From assembly GCA_020630915.1 (NCBI GenBank), contig JAHDIF010000009.1:47680-111679 (forward strand): 64,000 nt of DNA. Reading direction: 5' to 3'. The stretch comes from Dokdonia sp. Its GTDB lineage: Bacteria; Bacteroidota; Bacteroidia; Flavobacteriales; Flavobacteriaceae. The notes beneath the pieces were generated by a model that saw only the letters and a list, made by a program, of their open reading frames with translations, searched no databases and was not told the origin of the DNA. Each line of letters starts with the position of its first letter. The first letter of the stretch is position 1. This document shows, piece by piece, positions 13,576 through 52,760 of the stretch. The position numbers and the translations under genes were made by a program.

Positions 13576-13603
13576 TAACATTAGACTAAAGTCAGCTAAC
13601 ATT
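13576..13603 (+). promoter_or_regulatory. distal TAAC repeats upstream of the TonB receptor gene
   Basis: TAACATT at 13576, the weaker TAAAGTC at 13587 and TAACATT at 13597: steps of 11 and 10 bp. About 40 bp upstream of the proximal pair at 13641; possibly extra binding units of the same regulator. Confidence 0.4.
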
Positions 13604-13640
13604 GAGACAACACAAAGGTCACACCTTCCTAAAATAACAA

Positions 13641-13658
13641 TAACATTAGGGTAACCAG
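13641..13658 (+). promoter_or_regulatory. candidate Pho box, proximal pair
   Basis: TAACATT at 13641 and TAACCAG at 13652, exactly 11 bp apart. They begin 36 and 25 bp before the start of the -7-like box at 13677, the same register as at the PiT gene. Confidence 0.55.
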
Positions 13659-13676
13659 TAGGGCGGATTTACGTAC

Positions 13677-13684
13677 CATCTTTG
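13677..13684 (+). promoter_or_regulatory. -7-like element CATCTTTG for the TonB receptor gene
   Basis: One mismatch to TAnnTTTG, 21 bp before ATG 13706. A weak core box is expected for an activator-dependent promoter. Confidence 0.5.
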
Positions 13685-13705
13685 CATCGAATTTATACCC
13701 TATTA

Positions 13706-16558
13706 ATGAAACACGTATTTCTTTTTGTATTGATACTAACAAGTATCGCGTTAAATGCCCAAAATGGGTCAATTTCTGGAACGTTGCAAGACGGTGAAGC
13801 TGCCGGTCAGCCCTTACCGTTTGCAAATATCATAATTAAAGGTACTACGCAAGGTACCACCTCAGACTTTGATGGAAACTATAGTATTGACAATGTTGCA
13901 CCTGGAACGTATACTATAGAATTTTCTTTTGTTGGATACGAAACAAAAGAAATTGCAGCTGTAATCGTTACCGCAGATAACATCACAAACCTTGACGCAA
14001 CTCTTAATGCGAATGCTGCAGCTCTAGACGAAGTAATTGTAAAAACCACTGTGCGTAAAGAAACAGAAGCGGCGCTTCTTTTAGATCAGAAAAAAGCAAC
14101 GGTCATTAAACAAAGTATAGGTGCTCAAGAACTTGCGCGTAAAGGAATAAGCAATGCGGCAGCTGCAGTCACTAAAATTTCTGGTATTTCTAAACAAGAA
14201 GGTGGCGGTAATGTATACGTACGTGGTCTTGGAGATAGATATTTAAATACAACCTACAACGGGTTGTCCCTACCTGCAAATAATATTGAGAAAAAGAATA
14301 TGGACTTAGGCCTCTTCTCTTCTGATGTTATCCAGAATGTAGGTGTGAGCAAAACATATGCAGCCAACTTTTACGGAGATTTTGCCGCTGGAAATGTAGA
14401 TATCGTTGCAAAAGAGTACACAGGTGATTTCTTTCTTGATGCAGATCTAGGAACCACTTTTAACACCAATGCTGTTGGGAAAGATTTTCTTAAGAGTGAA
14501 GGAACAGGATACTTTGGCTTTTATAATAGATATCAGAATAATCCATTTGCGGTGATCTTATCACACGGCGTAGATCCAATATCTTCTGGCGCCACAACGG
14601 GGTTATCTGGAAGTATCTCAGGAGGAAAGTCTTGGGACATAGGAGAAGAATCAAGACTCAGTGTGTTTGCTACGACTTCTTTTGGGAGTAATTTTGAGTA
14701 TAGAAGAGGACAACAGGCCAATGTTACAGGAGCAGCAAATACTATTTTTGAAGAAGCTGAAGAGTTTGAGTTTAGTCGTACCACTACAGCAATGGCAAAC
14801 ATCGTATATCGTATAAATGGTGATCATAAAATAAAATTTAATTCTCTCTTTATAAACGACGCTACAGATGAGGTAGGGCGATTTGGTATAGACGGTAATG
14901 GATTCTTTAGAGGAACTGTAGCAGATGACGATGACTTTGGGTTCTTTACTCAAAATGTGCAGTTTGAGCAGGATATGATTTATGTAAACCAGCTCACTGG
15001 AATAAGTCGCTATAATGACAAAATAAAAGTAGATTATGGCGTGGGCTACAACAAAGTGCTCGCACGCCAGCCAGACAGAAAACGTATCGCACTAGAACAA
15101 TATGATCTTGCACTTGATAATGACGAGAATACAAGTCCTATTTTTTTTAGCCAAGTAGTCTTTGACAACCAGAGATATTTCCAAAACATTGATGACAGTG
15201 AGTTTAATGCTCGGGTAAATATAAACTACGCAATGTCTGAAGACCTCACTTTTAATTTTGGTTACAATGGACGTTCTAAAAATCGTTCTTTTGACAACCA
15301 ACGTTTTGGGTATGAAATCATTAATCCAGGAACAGAAGTACAAGACCCAAATAATCTGAATGAGGTTTTTAATATTGAAAATCTAGGGACGGTATATAAC
15401 ACAAGAGTTTTTAGAAGCCTAGAAGGTTTAAGCAATACAAACCTGCCAGGAGAGTTAGAAAATACGTACTCTGGAGAACTTAATGTGCACGCATTGTATG
15501 CAGATGCCACCTATAAAATGGGAGAAAAATGGACAATCACTCCTGGTTTGAGAGTAGAGGCATTTAATCAAAATATTGAATATAATGTAATCAATCTTGC
15601 ATTTAACAATCCTGGCAGTAATGAGGCTACAGAAACTTTTTTACTTCCAAGTTTGAATGTGAAATATGCGCTAACAGAAGACAAAAACCTTCGTTTTTCT
15701 GCTAGTAGAACTGTTTCTAACCCAGAGTTTAAGGAAGTAGCTCCTTTTGTGTATGAAAATGTTACAGATCGTATTGGAGGAAATCCAGACCTGTTAAACG
15801 ATCCAGCGTTTTCAACCATTCTTAATTTTGATGCGAAATATGAATGGTTTTTAAGTAGAGGTGAGATTTTCTCTATAGGCGCTTTCGCCAAAATGATCAA
15901 TAATCCCGTAAACCTCGTATCTGCAAATGACGCAACAGGGACGCAACGCTTCTTTAGAACAGGTGATAAAGCTGAAATTTTTGGAATTGAATTAGAAGTG
16001 CGCAAGACATTAATACAAGACGAAGAAGAAAACAAATTACTTTCTGCTGGATTAAATGTAACCTACACTTCTACAAAACAAGATTTGAAAACAGTTTCAG
16101 GGACGTTTAATACAAACTTTAACCGAGACTCAGACGAGTTACAAGGAGCGTCTCCATTTCTTATAAATGCAGACCTAAGCTACTCTCCTACTTTTGGCAC
16201 TTACAAGCCTATGGCAAACCTTGTGTTTTCATACTTTTCAGATCGTATAGATGCATTAGGATCAGGACAACTAGGAAATATTGTAGAGAAAGGGGTTCCA
16301 ACATTAGACTTCATTTGGAAAAATAAAATCAATGAGCATTTTGAAATTAATGCAAGTATTAAAAATTTATTGAACCCTACCATAGCTCGTGTAAGAGAAA
16401 ACGCAAACATAGGAGTAAGTTTAGCACAACAACTCAATATTCCGGTAACAGAAGTTATAGACAGCAACGGAAATTCACAATTTATAGCAGAAGAGTTTGA
16501 CCTTTCAAGTTACAAAAGAGGTGTAAATATAGGCTTGCAATTAAAGTACACATTTTAA
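13706..16558 (+). CDS. TonB-dependent receptor, likely phosphate-regulated
   Basis: Outer-membrane beta-barrel importer, 950 residues. Signal peptide MKHVFLFVLILTSIALNAQ, then a carboxypeptidase-like regulatory domain (GSISGTLQDGEAAGQPLPFANI, about 20-105), a plug (about 110-240: KISGISKQEGGGNVYVRGLGDRY) and a long barrel ending in aromatic LKYTF. I use ATG 13706; the track start is a TTG overlapping the promoter. Next comes a beta-helix lipoprotein gene 40 bp on. The TAAC-repeat promoter and the nearby porin O/P and PiT genes suggest import of a phosphorus compound; substrate unproven. A degenerate palindrome lies at 15881. Confidence 0.92.
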   Translation: MKHVFLFVLILTSIALNAQNGSISGTLQDGEAAGQPLPFANIIIKGTTQGTTSDFDGNYSIDNVAPGTYTIEFSFVGYETKEIAAVIVTADNITNLDATLNANAAALDEVIVKTTVRKETEAALLLDQKKATVIKQSIGAQELARKGISNAAAAVTKISGISKQEGGGNVYVRGLGDRYLNTTYNGLSLPANNIEKKNMDLGLFSSDVIQNVGVSKTYAANFYGDFAAGNVDIVAKEYTGDFFLDADLGTTFNTNAVGKDFLKSEGTGYFGFYNRYQNNPFAVILSHGVDPISSGATTGLSGSISGGKSWDIGEESRLSVFATTSFGSNFEYRRGQQANVTGAANTIFEEAEEFEFSRTTTAMANIVYRINGDHKIKFNSLFINDATDEVGRFGIDGNGFFRGTVADDDDFGFFTQNVQFEQDMIYVNQLTGISRYNDKIKVDYGVGYNKVLARQPDRKRIALEQYDLALDNDENTSPIFFSQVVFDNQRYFQNIDDSEFNARVNINYAMSEDLTFNFGYNGRSKNRSFDNQRFGYEIINPGTEVQDPNNLNEVFNIENLGTVYNTRVFRSLEGLSNTNLPGELENTYSGELNVHALYADATYKMGEKWTITPGLRVEAFNQNIEYNVINLAFNNPGSNEATETFLLPSLNVKYALTEDKNLRFSASRTVSNPEFKEVAPFVYENVTDRIGGNPDLLNDPAFSTILNFDAKYEWFLSRGEIFSIGAFAKMINNPVNLVSANDATGTQRFFRTGDKAEIFGIELEVRKTLIQDEEENKLLSAGLNVTYTSTKQDLKTVSGTFNTNFNRDSDELQGASPFLINADLSYSPTFGTYKPMANLVFSYFSDRIDALGSGQLGNIVEKGVPTLDFIWKNKINEHFEINASIKNLLNPTIARVRENANIGVSLAQQLNIPVTEVIDSNGNSQFIAEEFDLSSYKRGVNIGLQLKYTF
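15881..15894. repeat. degenerate palindrome (inside TonB receptor gene)
   Basis: GCTTTCGCCAAAAT: intact left half, decayed right half. Read as A-F-A-K-M, the usual frame. Confidence 0.5.
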
Positions 16559-16598
16559 TCAATCATAAACTAACAGAATACTAATAAAAATTTAAAAA

Positions 16599-17756
16599 AT
16601 GAAAACAAACAAATTTCTCTTAAGTCTTTTTGCTGTAGCAACCCTATTTGTAGGATGTGCAGATGACGATACTGCAGATGTAACTATTAATCAAAATGGT
16701 GGTGTGACAAATCCAACTTCTAATGTCATAGGAGGAACCCTTACAGAAGATCTTACACTTTCTACGGGAACTGAGTACTCATTAGAGTCTGCTCTTATTG
16801 TACCGGAAGGATTTACTTTAACAGTAGAGCCAGGAGTAGTGGTAAAAGCTGCTTCAGGATCTGACGTTTATATTGCAGTTTTACAAGATGGAACTATAAA
16901 TGCAGAGGGCACCTCCTCTAACCCAATAGTATTTACATCGGCAGACTCAACTCCAAACCCTGGTGATTGGGGCGGTCTTATTATCTTGGGGAGAGCACCT
17001 ATCAACTCAGTAGTAGGAGGTGATGCTACTTCTACCTCAGAAATTGGAGGATTACCATATGGAGGAAGTGTCGCAAACGATAATTCAGGTATATTACGAT
17101 ATGTGCGTATTGAATACTCTGGAGGAGCGGCAGATGCTGCATCAGAAAATAACGGATTCTCATTTTATGCAGTAGGTAATGGAACGACTATAGAATATAT
17201 CCAAGCTTTTGAAGGAGCAGATGATGGTGTAGAGTTTTTTGGAGGCACAGTAGACGCTTCTTTTGTTTCTGTTATTGGAGCACAAGATGATTCTGTAGAC
17301 TGGACAGAAGGATACACCGGCTCTTTAACAAACGTTTATATTGAGCACAGACAGATACATGACAAAGGAATAGAAGGTGATGGTTTTAATACCGATATAG
17401 GAAATAACTCTAGCCCAGTATTTTGGTCTGCTCCAACAATTGCAAATCTTACTATTAATGGCCTAGGGTCTTCTAATGAAAATGAAGCAGTAAGATTACG
17501 TGCTGGAACGAGAGCAGTTATAAGCAATGTTCTGCTTCAAGGATTTACAGAAGGTTTTGATCTTGATGATACAGAAACAGGCAATGGTGTATTAGCTGGA
17601 GAAACGTCTATTACAGATATCACATTTGATGATGTGACATTGAACCTTAAGAATGATACGGGTGCTGCTTTTGACGAATCAGATGTTATAAGTGGTGTAA
17701 ATAATGGGGTTGGGGCAGATTATGCTTCTTGGAGTGCTGGCTGGACTCGTGACTAA
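16599..17756 (+). CDS. beta-helix-type surface lipoprotein paired with the TonB receptor
   Basis: 385 residues with lipoprotein signal (MKTNKFLLSLFAVATLFVGC). The body is rich in short Gly/Asn-containing strands (LTVEPGVVVKAASGSDVYIAV, PIVFTSADSTPNPGDWGGL, YVRIEYSGG, DGVEFFGGTVDASFVSVIG) typical of a right-handed parallel beta-helix. Similar proteins are often labelled only hypothetical. Lying 40 bp after the receptor gene suggests a surface partner, in the way SusD partners SusC, though it is not SusD-like. Ends in a shared convergent terminator. Confidence 0.8.
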   Translation: MKTNKFLLSLFAVATLFVGCADDDTADVTINQNGGVTNPTSNVIGGTLTEDLTLSTGTEYSLESALIVPEGFTLTVEPGVVVKAASGSDVYIAVLQDGTINAEGTSSNPIVFTSADSTPNPGDWGGLIILGRAPINSVVGGDATSTSEIGGLPYGGSVANDNSGILRYVRIEYSGGAADAASENNGFSFYAVGNGTTIEYIQAFEGADDGVEFFGGTVDASFVSVIGAQDDSVDWTEGYTGSLTNVYIEHRQIHDKGIEGDGFNTDIGNNSSPVFWSAPTIANLTINGLGSSNENEAVRLRAGTRAVISNVLLQGFTEGFDLDDTETGNGVLAGETSITDITFDDVTLNLKNDTGAAFDESDVISGVNNGVGADYASWSAGWTRD

Positions 17757-17776
17757 TTGAATTTGAAAATAGCCAA

Positions 17777-17811
17777 TAAAAAAAGGTCTCATTATTTGAG
17801 ACCCTTTTTTT
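17777..17811. terminator. bidirectional terminator
   Basis: Stem GGTCTCA / TGAGACC with TTATT loop, flanked by A7 and T7. Serves the beta-helix lipoprotein gene and the convergent MORN gene. Confidence 0.88.
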
Positions 17812-17827
17812 ATTTATAGGTTAATAC

Positions 17828-17841
17828 GCTTTCGCGAAAGC
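17828..17841. repeat. iterated palindrome, copy 5 (intergenic)
   Basis: Perfect copy inside an 18-bp palindrome, 10 bp beyond the stop of the MORN gene. Identity with copy 8 (31627) extends to 24 bp. Confidence 0.95.
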
Positions 17842-17851
17842 GTACTATTCT

Positions 17852-18217
17852 TTATTTATTACTTACTATCCGAGAACCTTCATTCTTCCAAGTATTTACA
17901 GAAGTTATTCTAGAATTTGTATAAGAAACCTCAGTAAGTGTATCTCCCTTCCAGAAAAACCAGGTCCCCACTTTGTTGCCATTTTCATATTGGGCAGCAG
18001 CAGTTTTAACGCCTTTGCGATCATAACTAATCCACTCTCCTGTTAACTTACCCTCTTTAGTAAAAAATCCTGTCTGACTTAATTCACCACTATCGTGATA
18101 TAGCGTAGCTTTAATGATATCACCATCTTGTACATAAAGATCTTTTTTCACTATATCCTGTGCACTTACGCTAAAAAAAGCAAAAACAAATGCTGTTAAA
18201 ATGAATATTTTTTTCAT
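17852..18217 (-). CDS. secreted MORN/YwqK-like repeat protein
   Basis: 121 residues with a signal peptide (MKKIFILTAFVFAFFSVSAQ). The rest is a series of about four short repeats of the form G-x-x-x-x-x-x-Y-x-x-x-G (KATLYHDSGELSQTG, KLTGEWISYDRKG, GNKVGTWFFWKG), as in MORN / YwqK-type proteins. No known activity. Transcribed divergently from the porin gene from a perfect -7 box; TAAC-type repeats lie farther up. Confidence 0.75.
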   Translation of the reverse strand: MKKIFILTAFVFAFFSVSAQDIVKKDLYVQDGDIIKATLYHDSGELSQTGFFTKEGKLTGEWISYDRKGVKTAAAQYENGNKVGTWFFWKGDTLTEVSYTNSRITSVNTWKNEGSRIVSNK

Positions 18218-18248
18218 CCTGTAGTATTTAAAAATTACTGTCGTCCAT

Positions 18249-18256
18249 CAAATTTA
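18249..18256 (-). promoter_or_regulatory. -7 element TAAATTTG for the MORN gene
   Basis: Exact TAnnTTTG on the minus strand, 31 bp before the ATG at 18217. Confidence 0.55.
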
Positions 18257-18287
18257 ATAAAAGCCTAACGATTTTTAAACTTTTAAG

Positions 18288-18308
18288 TAACATTAATTTT
18301 ACATTAAT
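18288..18308 (+). promoter_or_regulatory. 11-bp-spaced repeat pair (candidate Pho box)
   Basis: TAACATTAAT at 18288 and TTACATTAAT at 18299, exactly 11 bp apart. No matching -7 box lies downstream on the plus strand. The pair is about 32 bp beyond the minus-strand -7 of the MORN gene but in reverse orientation to it, so the target is unclear. Confidence 0.35.
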
Positions 18309-18513
18309 CCCATAACTAACTAATTTACATATAATTAATATTAAATTTTATTTGTTTTAAATGCTTGCCACGAACTCATTTTATCATACGTGATTTAAAG
18401 ATTCCCTAATAATAAGTTTACACGATTCCAAATACTGATTAAGAAATTAGTCCCGTCTTTACAAAAGAACATTTCAATATTTTTAGTTTTTGTCGACCTA
18501 ATTTTGAAATGGC

Positions 18514-18541
18514 GGGCTACCCATTGGGTAGCCCTTTTTTT
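18514..18541 (+). terminator. orphan intrinsic terminator hairpin
   Basis: A 9-bp stem GGGCTACCC / GGGTAGCCC with ATT loop, followed by T7. No plus-strand gene lies upstream. TAATTTTG (18499-18506), a perfect -7 match, lies just before it. It could end a tiny RNA or insulate the porin promoter. Confidence 0.75.
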
Positions 18542-18562
18542 GACTTAATGGTAATCTGTATT

Positions 18563-18580
18563 TAACAATGGCTTAACATT
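18563..18580 (+). promoter_or_regulatory. candidate Pho box of the porin gene
   Basis: TAACAAT at 18563 and TAACATT at 18574, exactly 11 bp apart. They start 25 and 14 bp before the -7-like box at 18588; the -25 unit is shared with the TonB receptor and PiT promoters. Confidence 0.55.
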
Positions 18581-18587
18581 AATAGCG

Positions 18588-18595
18588 GTTCTTTG
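18588..18595 (+). promoter_or_regulatory. -7-like element GTTCTTTG for the porin gene
   Basis: Two mismatches to TAnnTTTG, 24 bp before ATG 18620. Confidence 0.4.
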
Positions 18596-18619
18596 CACTC
18601 GACAAAAACTAAAATAATA

Positions 18620-19828
18620 ATGAAATTTAAAATTACACTTGTAACAGTACTTTTCTGTACGTTGTTCTCTTTTCAATCAAACGCTCAAAAAGTTGTTGAC
18701 TCAAAATTTGGTAAAGGCGTTTTTAATGTAATTGCAAAGGATAGTTCTTGGAGCATGAAATTTGCGACGAGAATGCAATTTTTATCTACCTCCGTTCTTG
18801 CAGCAGATGAGCCTAACTCGGCTGAAATAGAACAAAACTTTTTAATACGTCGTGCACGATTTAAATTTGATGGATTTGCCTTTAGCCCAAAATTGAAATA
18901 CAAATTTGAGCTTGGACTATCCAATCGTGATATCTCAGGAGGATCAGAATTTACAAGAAACACCCCTCGCTACATTCTTGATGCTGTTGTCATGTGGAAT
19001 TTTGCAGGAAACTGGGAGCTATGGGCAGGACAGACTAAACTTCCTGGTAACATAGAGCGTGTTGTTTCTTCTGGTAATCTACAGTTTGTAGATCGTTCTT
19101 TACTAAACTCTCGCTTTAATATTGATCGTGATGTGGGATTACAATTACGTCATAAGGACAAGCTAGGTGAGAATTTTGTAATAAGAGAAAAGATCGCCAT
19201 ATCTCAAGGAGAGGGACGTAATGTAACTCAAGGAAATGAAGGCGGACTTCAATATACAGCCAGGGTAGAGTTTTTACCTTTTGGAGAGTTCAAAAGCAAA
19301 GGAGATTACTCTGCTAGTGATTTAAAACGTGAAGCTACTCCAAAATTAATGGCTTCAATTAATTATGACCATAACAATAATGCGGTACGTGAGAGAAGTA
19401 ACCTAGGAGGATATATGTTCTTAAGTGATGGATCTTTATATCAGACTAATATTAATACCTTCTTTGCCGATGCCGTATTCAAATATCAAGGATTCTCTTT
19501 TACAACTGAATTTGCTAGACGAGATGCAGAAGCTGCGATCGCAGTAGAAGCAGATGGCACAGCAACTGGAGATGTAGTAAATGTAGGAAACTCATTAAAC
19601 CTACAAGCTGGATATTTACTACCTAGCAATCTTGAATTTTCAGGGAGATATACGAATGTAAATCTAGATGGCATCGCTGGTGGCGCAAAGACTGATCAAT
19701 ACACATTAGGTGCTTCCAAGTTTTTTGTAGGACACAAACTTAAGTTACAAACAGATCTTAGTTACACTACTATTAATGGTGAAGGAGATAACTGGATGTA
19801 CAGGCTACAATTAGATGTTCATTTCTAA
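18620..19828 (+). CDS. porin O/P (phosphate-selective porin family)
   Basis: 402-residue outer-membrane porin of the OprO/OprP family, allowing anions such as phosphate to enter. Signal peptide MKFKITLVTVLFCTLFSFQSNAQ, then FNVIAKDSSWSMKFATRMQF, QNFLIRRARFKFDGFAF and ELWAGQTKLPGNIERVVSS, typical of this family, and a terminal strand ending in HF. ATG 18620 is used instead of the upstream TTG (18593) that overlaps the promoter. A Pho-box-like pair precedes it and the PiT permease gene follows. Confidence 0.9.
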   Translation: MKFKITLVTVLFCTLFSFQSNAQKVVDSKFGKGVFNVIAKDSSWSMKFATRMQFLSTSVLAADEPNSAEIEQNFLIRRARFKFDGFAFSPKLKYKFELGLSNRDISGGSEFTRNTPRYILDAVVMWNFAGNWELWAGQTKLPGNIERVVSSGNLQFVDRSLLNSRFNIDRDVGLQLRHKDKLGENFVIREKIAISQGEGRNVTQGNEGGLQYTARVEFLPFGEFKSKGDYSASDLKREATPKLMASINYDHNNNAVRERSNLGGYMFLSDGSLYQTNINTFFADAVFKYQGFSFTTEFARRDAEAAIAVEADGTATGDVVNVGNSLNLQAGYLLPSNLEFSGRYTNVNLDGIAGGAKTDQYTLGASKFFVGHKLKLQTDLSYTTINGEGDNWMYRLQLDVHF

Positions 19829-19837
19829 ACGAATACA

Positions 19838-19855
19838 TAACTTTTACATAACTTA
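19838..19855 (+). promoter_or_regulatory. candidate Pho box of the PiT gene
   Basis: TAACTTT at 19838 and TAACTTA at 19849, each preceded by ACA and exactly 11 bp apart, starting 36 and 25 bp before the -7-like box at 19874. Confidence 0.55.
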
Positions 19856-19873
19856 TAGATCGAAATAGAATTG

Positions 19874-19881
19874 CATTTTTG
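19874..19881 (+). promoter_or_regulatory. -7-like element CATTTTTG for the PiT gene
   Basis: One mismatch to TAnnTTTG and the same CAnnTTTG form as at the TonB receptor gene; 24 bp before ATG 19906. Confidence 0.5.
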
Positions 19882-27550: not shown

Positions 27551-27568
27551 TAACATTTTGATAACATT
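27551..27568 (+). repeat. 11-bp direct repeat with TAACATT core
   Basis: TAACATT at 27551 and 27562, embedded in two copies of ATTTTGATAAC. Same core and spacing as the candidate Pho boxes, but without a convincing -7 box in register. Confidence 0.5.
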
Positions 27569-27623
27569 TTTTGCGCAAACCACCCGTCGCTTTTTTAAGG
27601 ATAATTCTTACAGAAACCGCCAT

Positions 27624-52597: not shown

Positions 52598-52760
52598 AAG
52601 CTAATTTTTCTTGAAAAGTACAAGCTTCAAAAGACATCGCAAAATAGATATTCACAAAAAGAAAAGGATCTTCTCTAAGAAACCTAACTCCATAGAAAAA
52701 CCCTATCCAACTATCTGTTAGAATAATGTTATGAACGCTTAAACAATACGACCTAAGCCG

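Follow-up and report, generated by a model that had tools for sequence, protein, structure and literature searches.

TAAC repeats in fixed register with the -7 element are probable Pho boxes of Dokdonia and other Flavobacteriaceae

Repeats in the promoters of the TonB receptor, porin and PiT genes

The window, a 64,000-nucleotide stretch of a Dokdonia sp. genome, carries on its plus strand the gene of a TonB-dependent receptor with a CarboxypepD_reg domain according to Pfam (13706..16558), the gene of a 385-aa secreted protein or lipoprotein downstream of it (16599..17756), the gene of the phosphate-selective porin O/P (PF07396; 18620..19828) and that of a PiT phosphate transporter with a PhoU-like C-terminal half (PF01384; 19906..22155). 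The receptor is homologous to the one encoded divergently from phoBR in Flavobacterium. For the 385-aa protein, searches of Pfam and NCBIfam gave no match; a 34% identical homolog in locus L322 is preceded by the repeats described below, and from its position we infer that the protein corresponds to the F. johnsoniae lipoprotein FII. PiT orthologs were found in 243 of 251 Flavobacteriaceae genomes.

A sequence-only reading of this DNA had placed pairs of TAAC-starting heptamers, exactly 11 bp apart, before the receptor, porin and PiT genes, and these pairs are indeed present at 13641/13652, 18563/18574 and 19838/19849. Measured to the -7-like boxes that start at 13677, 18588 and 19874, the registers it gave (-36/-25, -25/-14 and -36/-25) are exact. 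The -25 unit is common to the three promoters, as had been said, and in fact all three share the -36 position as well, because the porin promoter contains a degenerate -36 unit, TAATCTG at 18552, that had been overlooked. The porin promoter thus has three units (-36/-25/-14), and the receptor and PiT promoters have two (-36/-25).

In the receptor promoter, which is an exact-register match, the -36 unit TAACATTAGGG (13641..13651, plus strand, as are all the elements of these promoters) is followed by the -25 unit TAACCAGTAGG (13652..13662) and the -7-like box CATCTTTG (13677..13684), compared here with the consensus TAnnTTTG, which lies at -12 to -5 in the sigma-A promoters of Bacteroidota (PMC9723704). 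Two extra TAACATT units at 13576 and 13597 (13576..13603), 21 bp from each other, precede the -36 unit by 65 and 44 bp; as 44 = 4 x 11, they are probably distal sites that face the same side of the helix. The porin promoter consists of the degenerate -36 unit TAATCTGTATT (18552..18562), the -25 unit TAACAATGGCT (18563..18573), the -14 unit TAACATTAATA (18574..18584) and the box GTTCTTTG (18588..18595); among the porin O/P promoters of 30 relatives, TAA[CT] is found at -36 in 26, [TA]AAC at -25 in 29 and TAAC at -14 in 25. The PiT promoter has TAACTTTTACA at -36 (19838..19848), TAACTTATAGA at -25 (19849..19859) and the box CATTTTTG (19874..19881), aligned with GATATTTG in the relatives.

Two further stretches of the window resemble these elements. 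On the plus strand, 27551-27580 holds a good-looking 11-bp pair, TAACATTTTGATAACATTTT, between the nrdB and succinate dehydrogenase genes, both of which are on the minus strand, so that a downstream plus-strand gene is not obvious. The intergenic stretch 52717-52731 of the minus strand reads TAACATTATTCTAAC, and no -7 box was seen in register with it.

Conservation of the repeats and their register

Within the window, the bare pair TAAC-N7-TAAC occurs 6 times against 3.07 expected, and at least 6 occurrences were reached in 8 of 100 shuffles. By itself the window therefore leaves the motif barely above chance and is not convincing; the comparison of relatives settles the question. PiT orthologs were gathered from the 251 Flavobacteriaceae genomes, and 87 upstream regions were examined. 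The pair is present in 73 of these 87, with a mean of 0.97 and a maximum of 5 in dinucleotide shuffles, and in 67 of the 87 (67 of the 73 with the pair) its second TAAC stands at a distance of exactly 29 nt from the TTTG that follows, which no shuffle reproduced. A spacing of 11 between TAAC words was seen 76 times at PiT promoters, and the next commonest spacing 13 times.

The PiT promoters share the consensus AAAAnATAACAtTTaggTAACAtt-N-GATATTTGCA, in which the invariance of TAAC and TTTG is a consequence of the way the sequences were selected; the seventh base of the first unit, a T, is also invariant. The -7 box of the relatives reads GATATTTG instead of TAnnTTTG. The first T of the consensus is consistently absent, so that the weakness of the -7 box, which the sequence-only reading had claimed, is itself conserved.

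As a regulon finder the bare pair was dropped, having 88 occurrences in the Dokdonia genome against 146 for a reversed control. The exact-register pattern TAAC-N7-TAAC-N25-TTTG behaves differently, with 4 matches in this 2.97-Mb genome and none for the control. Three of the four precede the genes of the TonB receptor, PiT and moxR; the fourth (L184) lies upstream of a TonB-receptor-like gene, in a hairpin-like, terminator-looking stretch. Allowing one mismatch gave 34 matches against 32 for the control, which is uninformative beyond the known targets. One such match (L212, G000:C14:38011) stands before the gene of a 184-aa membrane protein, 3 kb from phoBR.

Genes that carry the box

Over the 251 Flavobacteriaceae genomes the exact pattern has 869 matches, compared to 472 for the reversed control (p = 1.7e-21), or about 3-4 per genome, on the same few genes. 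From 15 genomes, 60 exact matches were taken without selection by gene: 33 precede PiT (14), moxR (12), a TonB receptor (6) or a receptor-linked lipoprotein (1), and 17 of the remainder are inside long reading frames. The sequence-only reading had said that a lack of enrichment at other phosphate genes would refute it; this did not come about, the exact register returning at PiT, PitA-DUF47, porin O/P and the phoB-linked TonB receptor. In addition, phoB has the repeat, in inverted form and not in the genus of our Dokdonia, and PhoX and EndA carry the motif in part.

Flavobacterium anhuiense, F. tyrosinilyticum and F. sp. Root186, close relatives that stand in for F. johnsoniae and were identified by means of the GldM sequence, have 12 matches in all. 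In each of the three genomes the box stands before moxR and before the TonB receptor gene that diverges from phoB-phoR; in two it also precedes the DUF47-PitA operon, which places a non-orthologous phosphate transporter under the same box and which we count as telling. In 11 of 12 EndA loci of F. johnsoniae relatives the promoter shows a TAAC 29 nt upstream of TTTG, and both of two PhoX-MauG operons have a single TAAC unit in the same register (a Pfam search found PhoX in just 3 of 16 genomes). Because the EndA and PhoX promoters keep a single unit in register, the -25 unit is the constant one.

The moxR box of the Dokdonia genome, TAACCAATTATTAACA (G000:C15:57508-57551, L187), is an exact-register box upstream of the gene and recurs in 12 of the 15 relatives sampled. 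The three Flavobacterium genomes have it too, which suggests a long-standing link between PhoB and the MoxR/Bat system.

The phoB promoters and a candidate PhoB

In 26 of 30 relatives (L064-L093), the phoB promoter contains an inverted repeat, GTTA-N7-GTTA, located some 53-55 bp before a TAnnTTT[AG] box and about 85 bp upstream of phoB. A spacing of 11 was found 29 times there, vs 7 for the next. The reverse repeat is absent from the phoB promoters of the genus itself (L064, L065).

The Dokdonia genome has three OmpR-family regulators, one PhoB-like and two of the HK-RR type that resemble RprY by eye. The PhoB-like one is encoded on the minus strand 20 kb upstream of the TonB receptor (1492-2175, L031) and combines a receiver with an OmpR-type DNA-binding domain (PF00486); a histidine kinase gene lies downstream. 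Its best model is the PhoB equivalog TIGR02154 (213.7 bits, below the curated cut-off of 296), and it scores 206.9 against the Bacteroidota PhoB model NF053854, below the cut-off of 270. With a threshold of E <= 1e-30, 245 of the 251 genomes have an ortholog, although a few of these are weak, and the protein is 74% identical to the PhoB encoded beside the boxed receptor in Flavobacterium. We consider it likely to be the PhoB that acts on the boxes.

Comparison with known systems

The arrangement resembles the Pho box of E. coli, which is defined by direct repeats of 11 nt in tandem, each with some 7 conserved bases, before phosphate genes (PMC4415409). Here at least two tandem direct repeats with an 11-nt period are found, and they are sited at the promoters of PiT, PitA, porin O/P, the TonB receptor and phoB, that of the own-genus phoB excepted. 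It also resembles the activation of sigma-70 promoters by E. coli PhoB in that the distance from the -10/-7 element is fixed and the number of units varies (PMC4415409); the distance here is 29 nt to TTTG in 67/73 PiT and 11/12 EndA promoters. The core differs, however, being TAACATT here and CTGTCAT in E. coli, and so does the promoter, which is of the Bacteroidota sigma-A type (TAnnTTTG, PMC9723704) with one unit fixed at -25 from the box.

Another Flavobacteriales regulator of the PhoB/PhoP type, PhoP of Riemerella anatipestifer, has the most conserved motif letters TTTAACA in DAP-seq and shares with our boxes the core TTAACA and the target moxR, which it activates: it shifts the moxR promoter, and moxR is 4-fold lower in the phoP mutant (PMC9603813). 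That study defined no 11-bp tandem, -7 register or phosphate regulon (PMC9603813). The probable Pho box described here has its own core and promoter geometry; in the literature searched, the operator was previously known just as the Riemerella PhoP motif.

TTAACA-like hexamers with an 11-bp period also make up the PhoP box of Bacillus subtilis (TT[ACT]A[CT]A repeats). It too is built of tandem repeats (PMC4415409), but it belongs to promoters of another sigma factor and to another phylum.

The low-phosphate response of Bacteroidota has already been reported. In F. johnsoniae, low Pi induces the TonB receptor beside phoB with a log2FC of 8.0 (2^8-fold), EndA with 4.1-4.7 and PhoX with 12.5 (PMC8115612), and the orthologs of this PHO regulon (the TonB receptor and lipoprotein by phoBR, EndA and PhoX) carry the -25 unit in the relatives. 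Counting against phosphate control of this class of gene, porin O/P Fjoh_0542, beside phoR, is not induced at low Pi, so boxed genes need not all respond strongly to phosphate; PitA is missing from the table of induced genes (PMC8115612). That work reports expression and no binding motif, and the text of the sigma-A promoter study contains no Pho box (PMC9723704). Putative Pho boxes have been described at plcP clusters of marine bacteria, including a Dokdonia, and no Bacteroidota motif was seen there (PMC4796936). A search of the literature open to searching, which leaves out most subscription journals, found no definition of a Pho box for Flavobacteriaceae.

Interpretation and alternatives

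We propose, with a probability of roughly 0.9, that the repeats are Pho boxes of a Bacteroidota type bound by PhoB; their conservation, their register and their recurrence at phosphate genes all support this reading. By analogy with what is known of PhoB (tandem binding, sigma contact and activation; PMC4415409), two or three 11-bp units TAACATTnnnn, one of them always 25 bp upstream of the -7 element, would be bound head to tail by phosphorylated PhoB, as a dimer or, at the porin promoter, as a trimer. The box would replace the upstream sigma contact: PhoB would take the place of the missing -33/-35 contact at a conserved weak -7 box, recruit sigma-A RNA polymerase at low phosphate and so activate a weak promoter. 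A shift by whole turns between promoters (-36/-25 vs -36/-25/-14) suits a protein on one face of the helix. The missing repeat at phoB in the genus itself, the scores of the PhoB candidate below the cut-offs and the absence of PitA from the induced genes of F. johnsoniae count against the proposal. In the Dokdonia genome the predicted targets would be the TonB receptor with its lipoprotein, porin O/P, PiT and moxR.

The last of these speaks against a Pho box, as moxR is not a classical phosphate gene, and its presence suggests that the role of the regulator is wider than phosphate. One could suppose that the box is the site of another OmpR-family regulator, ArcA-like or RprY-like, that answers to redox or envelope stress rather than to phosphate. 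The authors of the Riemerella study likened the PhoP motif to that of E. coli ArcA, and the direct PhoP targets with the best support there are aerotolerance genes, moxR/bat (PMC9603813); in our survey, too, few genes are boxed as often as moxR. Nevertheless, we regard this as unlikely. Apart from the PhoB-like protein, the Dokdonia genome offers just the two regulators that resemble RprY, and the boxed genes are overwhelmingly phosphate genes, up to the replacement of PiT by the non-orthologous DUF47-PitA. Moreover, the box is present at phoB, and the matches examined include no RprY-type gene.

That the TAAC units merely extend a sigma-A promoter and have no activator of their own would account for the rigid register to the -7 box in 67 of 73 PiT promoters, but it is very improbable: with about 3-4 exact matches per genome on the same few genes the pattern is not a general promoter element, the number and position of units vary in whole 11-bp steps (as with the porin -14 unit), and at phoB the box is inverted and further upstream, which is impossible for a core element. 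Least credible of all is the chance occurrence of TAAC words in AT-rich intergenic DNA. It agrees with the weak enrichment in the window and with the bare pair not being enriched in the Dokdonia genome, yet it is already refuted by the PiT promoters, 73 of 87 of which have the pair where shuffles reach 5 at most, and the return of the box at the same genes throughout the class also tells against it.

If PhoB is the protein that binds these boxes, the rule TAACATTnnnnTAAC, in which the second unit precedes the -7 box by 25 bp, can be scanned for, and sequence would suffice to predict the Pho regulon; unknown genes, among them the TonB receptor/lipoprotein pair and moxR-bat, are nominated by it for membership. 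The rule would further illustrate the action of PhoB on promoters that use the unusual sigma factor of Bacteroidota, organisms that perform much of the turnover of organic matter in the sea, in soil and in the gut, where they are often phosphate-limited.

Matches outside Flavobacteriaceae

Raw counts across the class, judged by eye, have no overall excess outside Flavobacteriaceae, and a signal appears only after choosing family-like matches. Twenty matches that resembled the family box were picked by eye, at a stage when their genes had not yet been looked at. They precede porin O/P (6; three by Pfam and three by BLAST to those), PitA (4), phoB (2; 64-66% identical to the PhoB candidate of Dokdonia), a TonB receptor (2), DUF47 (1) and a weak PiT-like gene (1), and four precede unrelated genes. 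Among 20 other matches that served as controls, one belongs to a phosphate operon, with a canonical-looking box. The contrast of 16/20 vs 1/20 phosphate-related matches depends on a choice by eye and is suggestive, not a formal test. On this sequence evidence the box extends beyond the family, to some of its relatives.

We lean, with some reserve, towards a single PhoB operator throughout the class Bacteroidia, with an obligatory -25 unit, a promoter of the TAnnTTTG type and the core TAACATT, whose ancestral regulon would comprise phosphate uptake (PiT/PitA-DUF47, porin O/P, the TonB receptor with its lipoprotein, phoB) and the MoxR-Bat envelope operon. If this is true, phosphate starvation would be wired to envelope or oxidative stress throughout Bacteroidia.

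Genomes without the PiT box

Several reduced genomes keep phoB and have no PiT box, mostly where PiT closely follows the porin gene. The co-occurrence of box and phoB is not a clean test, as nearly every member of the family has phoB and the comparison is confounded by the reduced genomes: the sole complete genome without phoB (G023) has no box, and neither do several reduced genomes that bear phoB. In four reduced genomes (G066, G053, G020 and G185; L110, L112, L114 and L123) hardly any space is left between the porin O/P and PiT genes; the promoter that lies there in other genomes has gone together with its box, and phoB is still there, possibly reflecting a loss of separate control.
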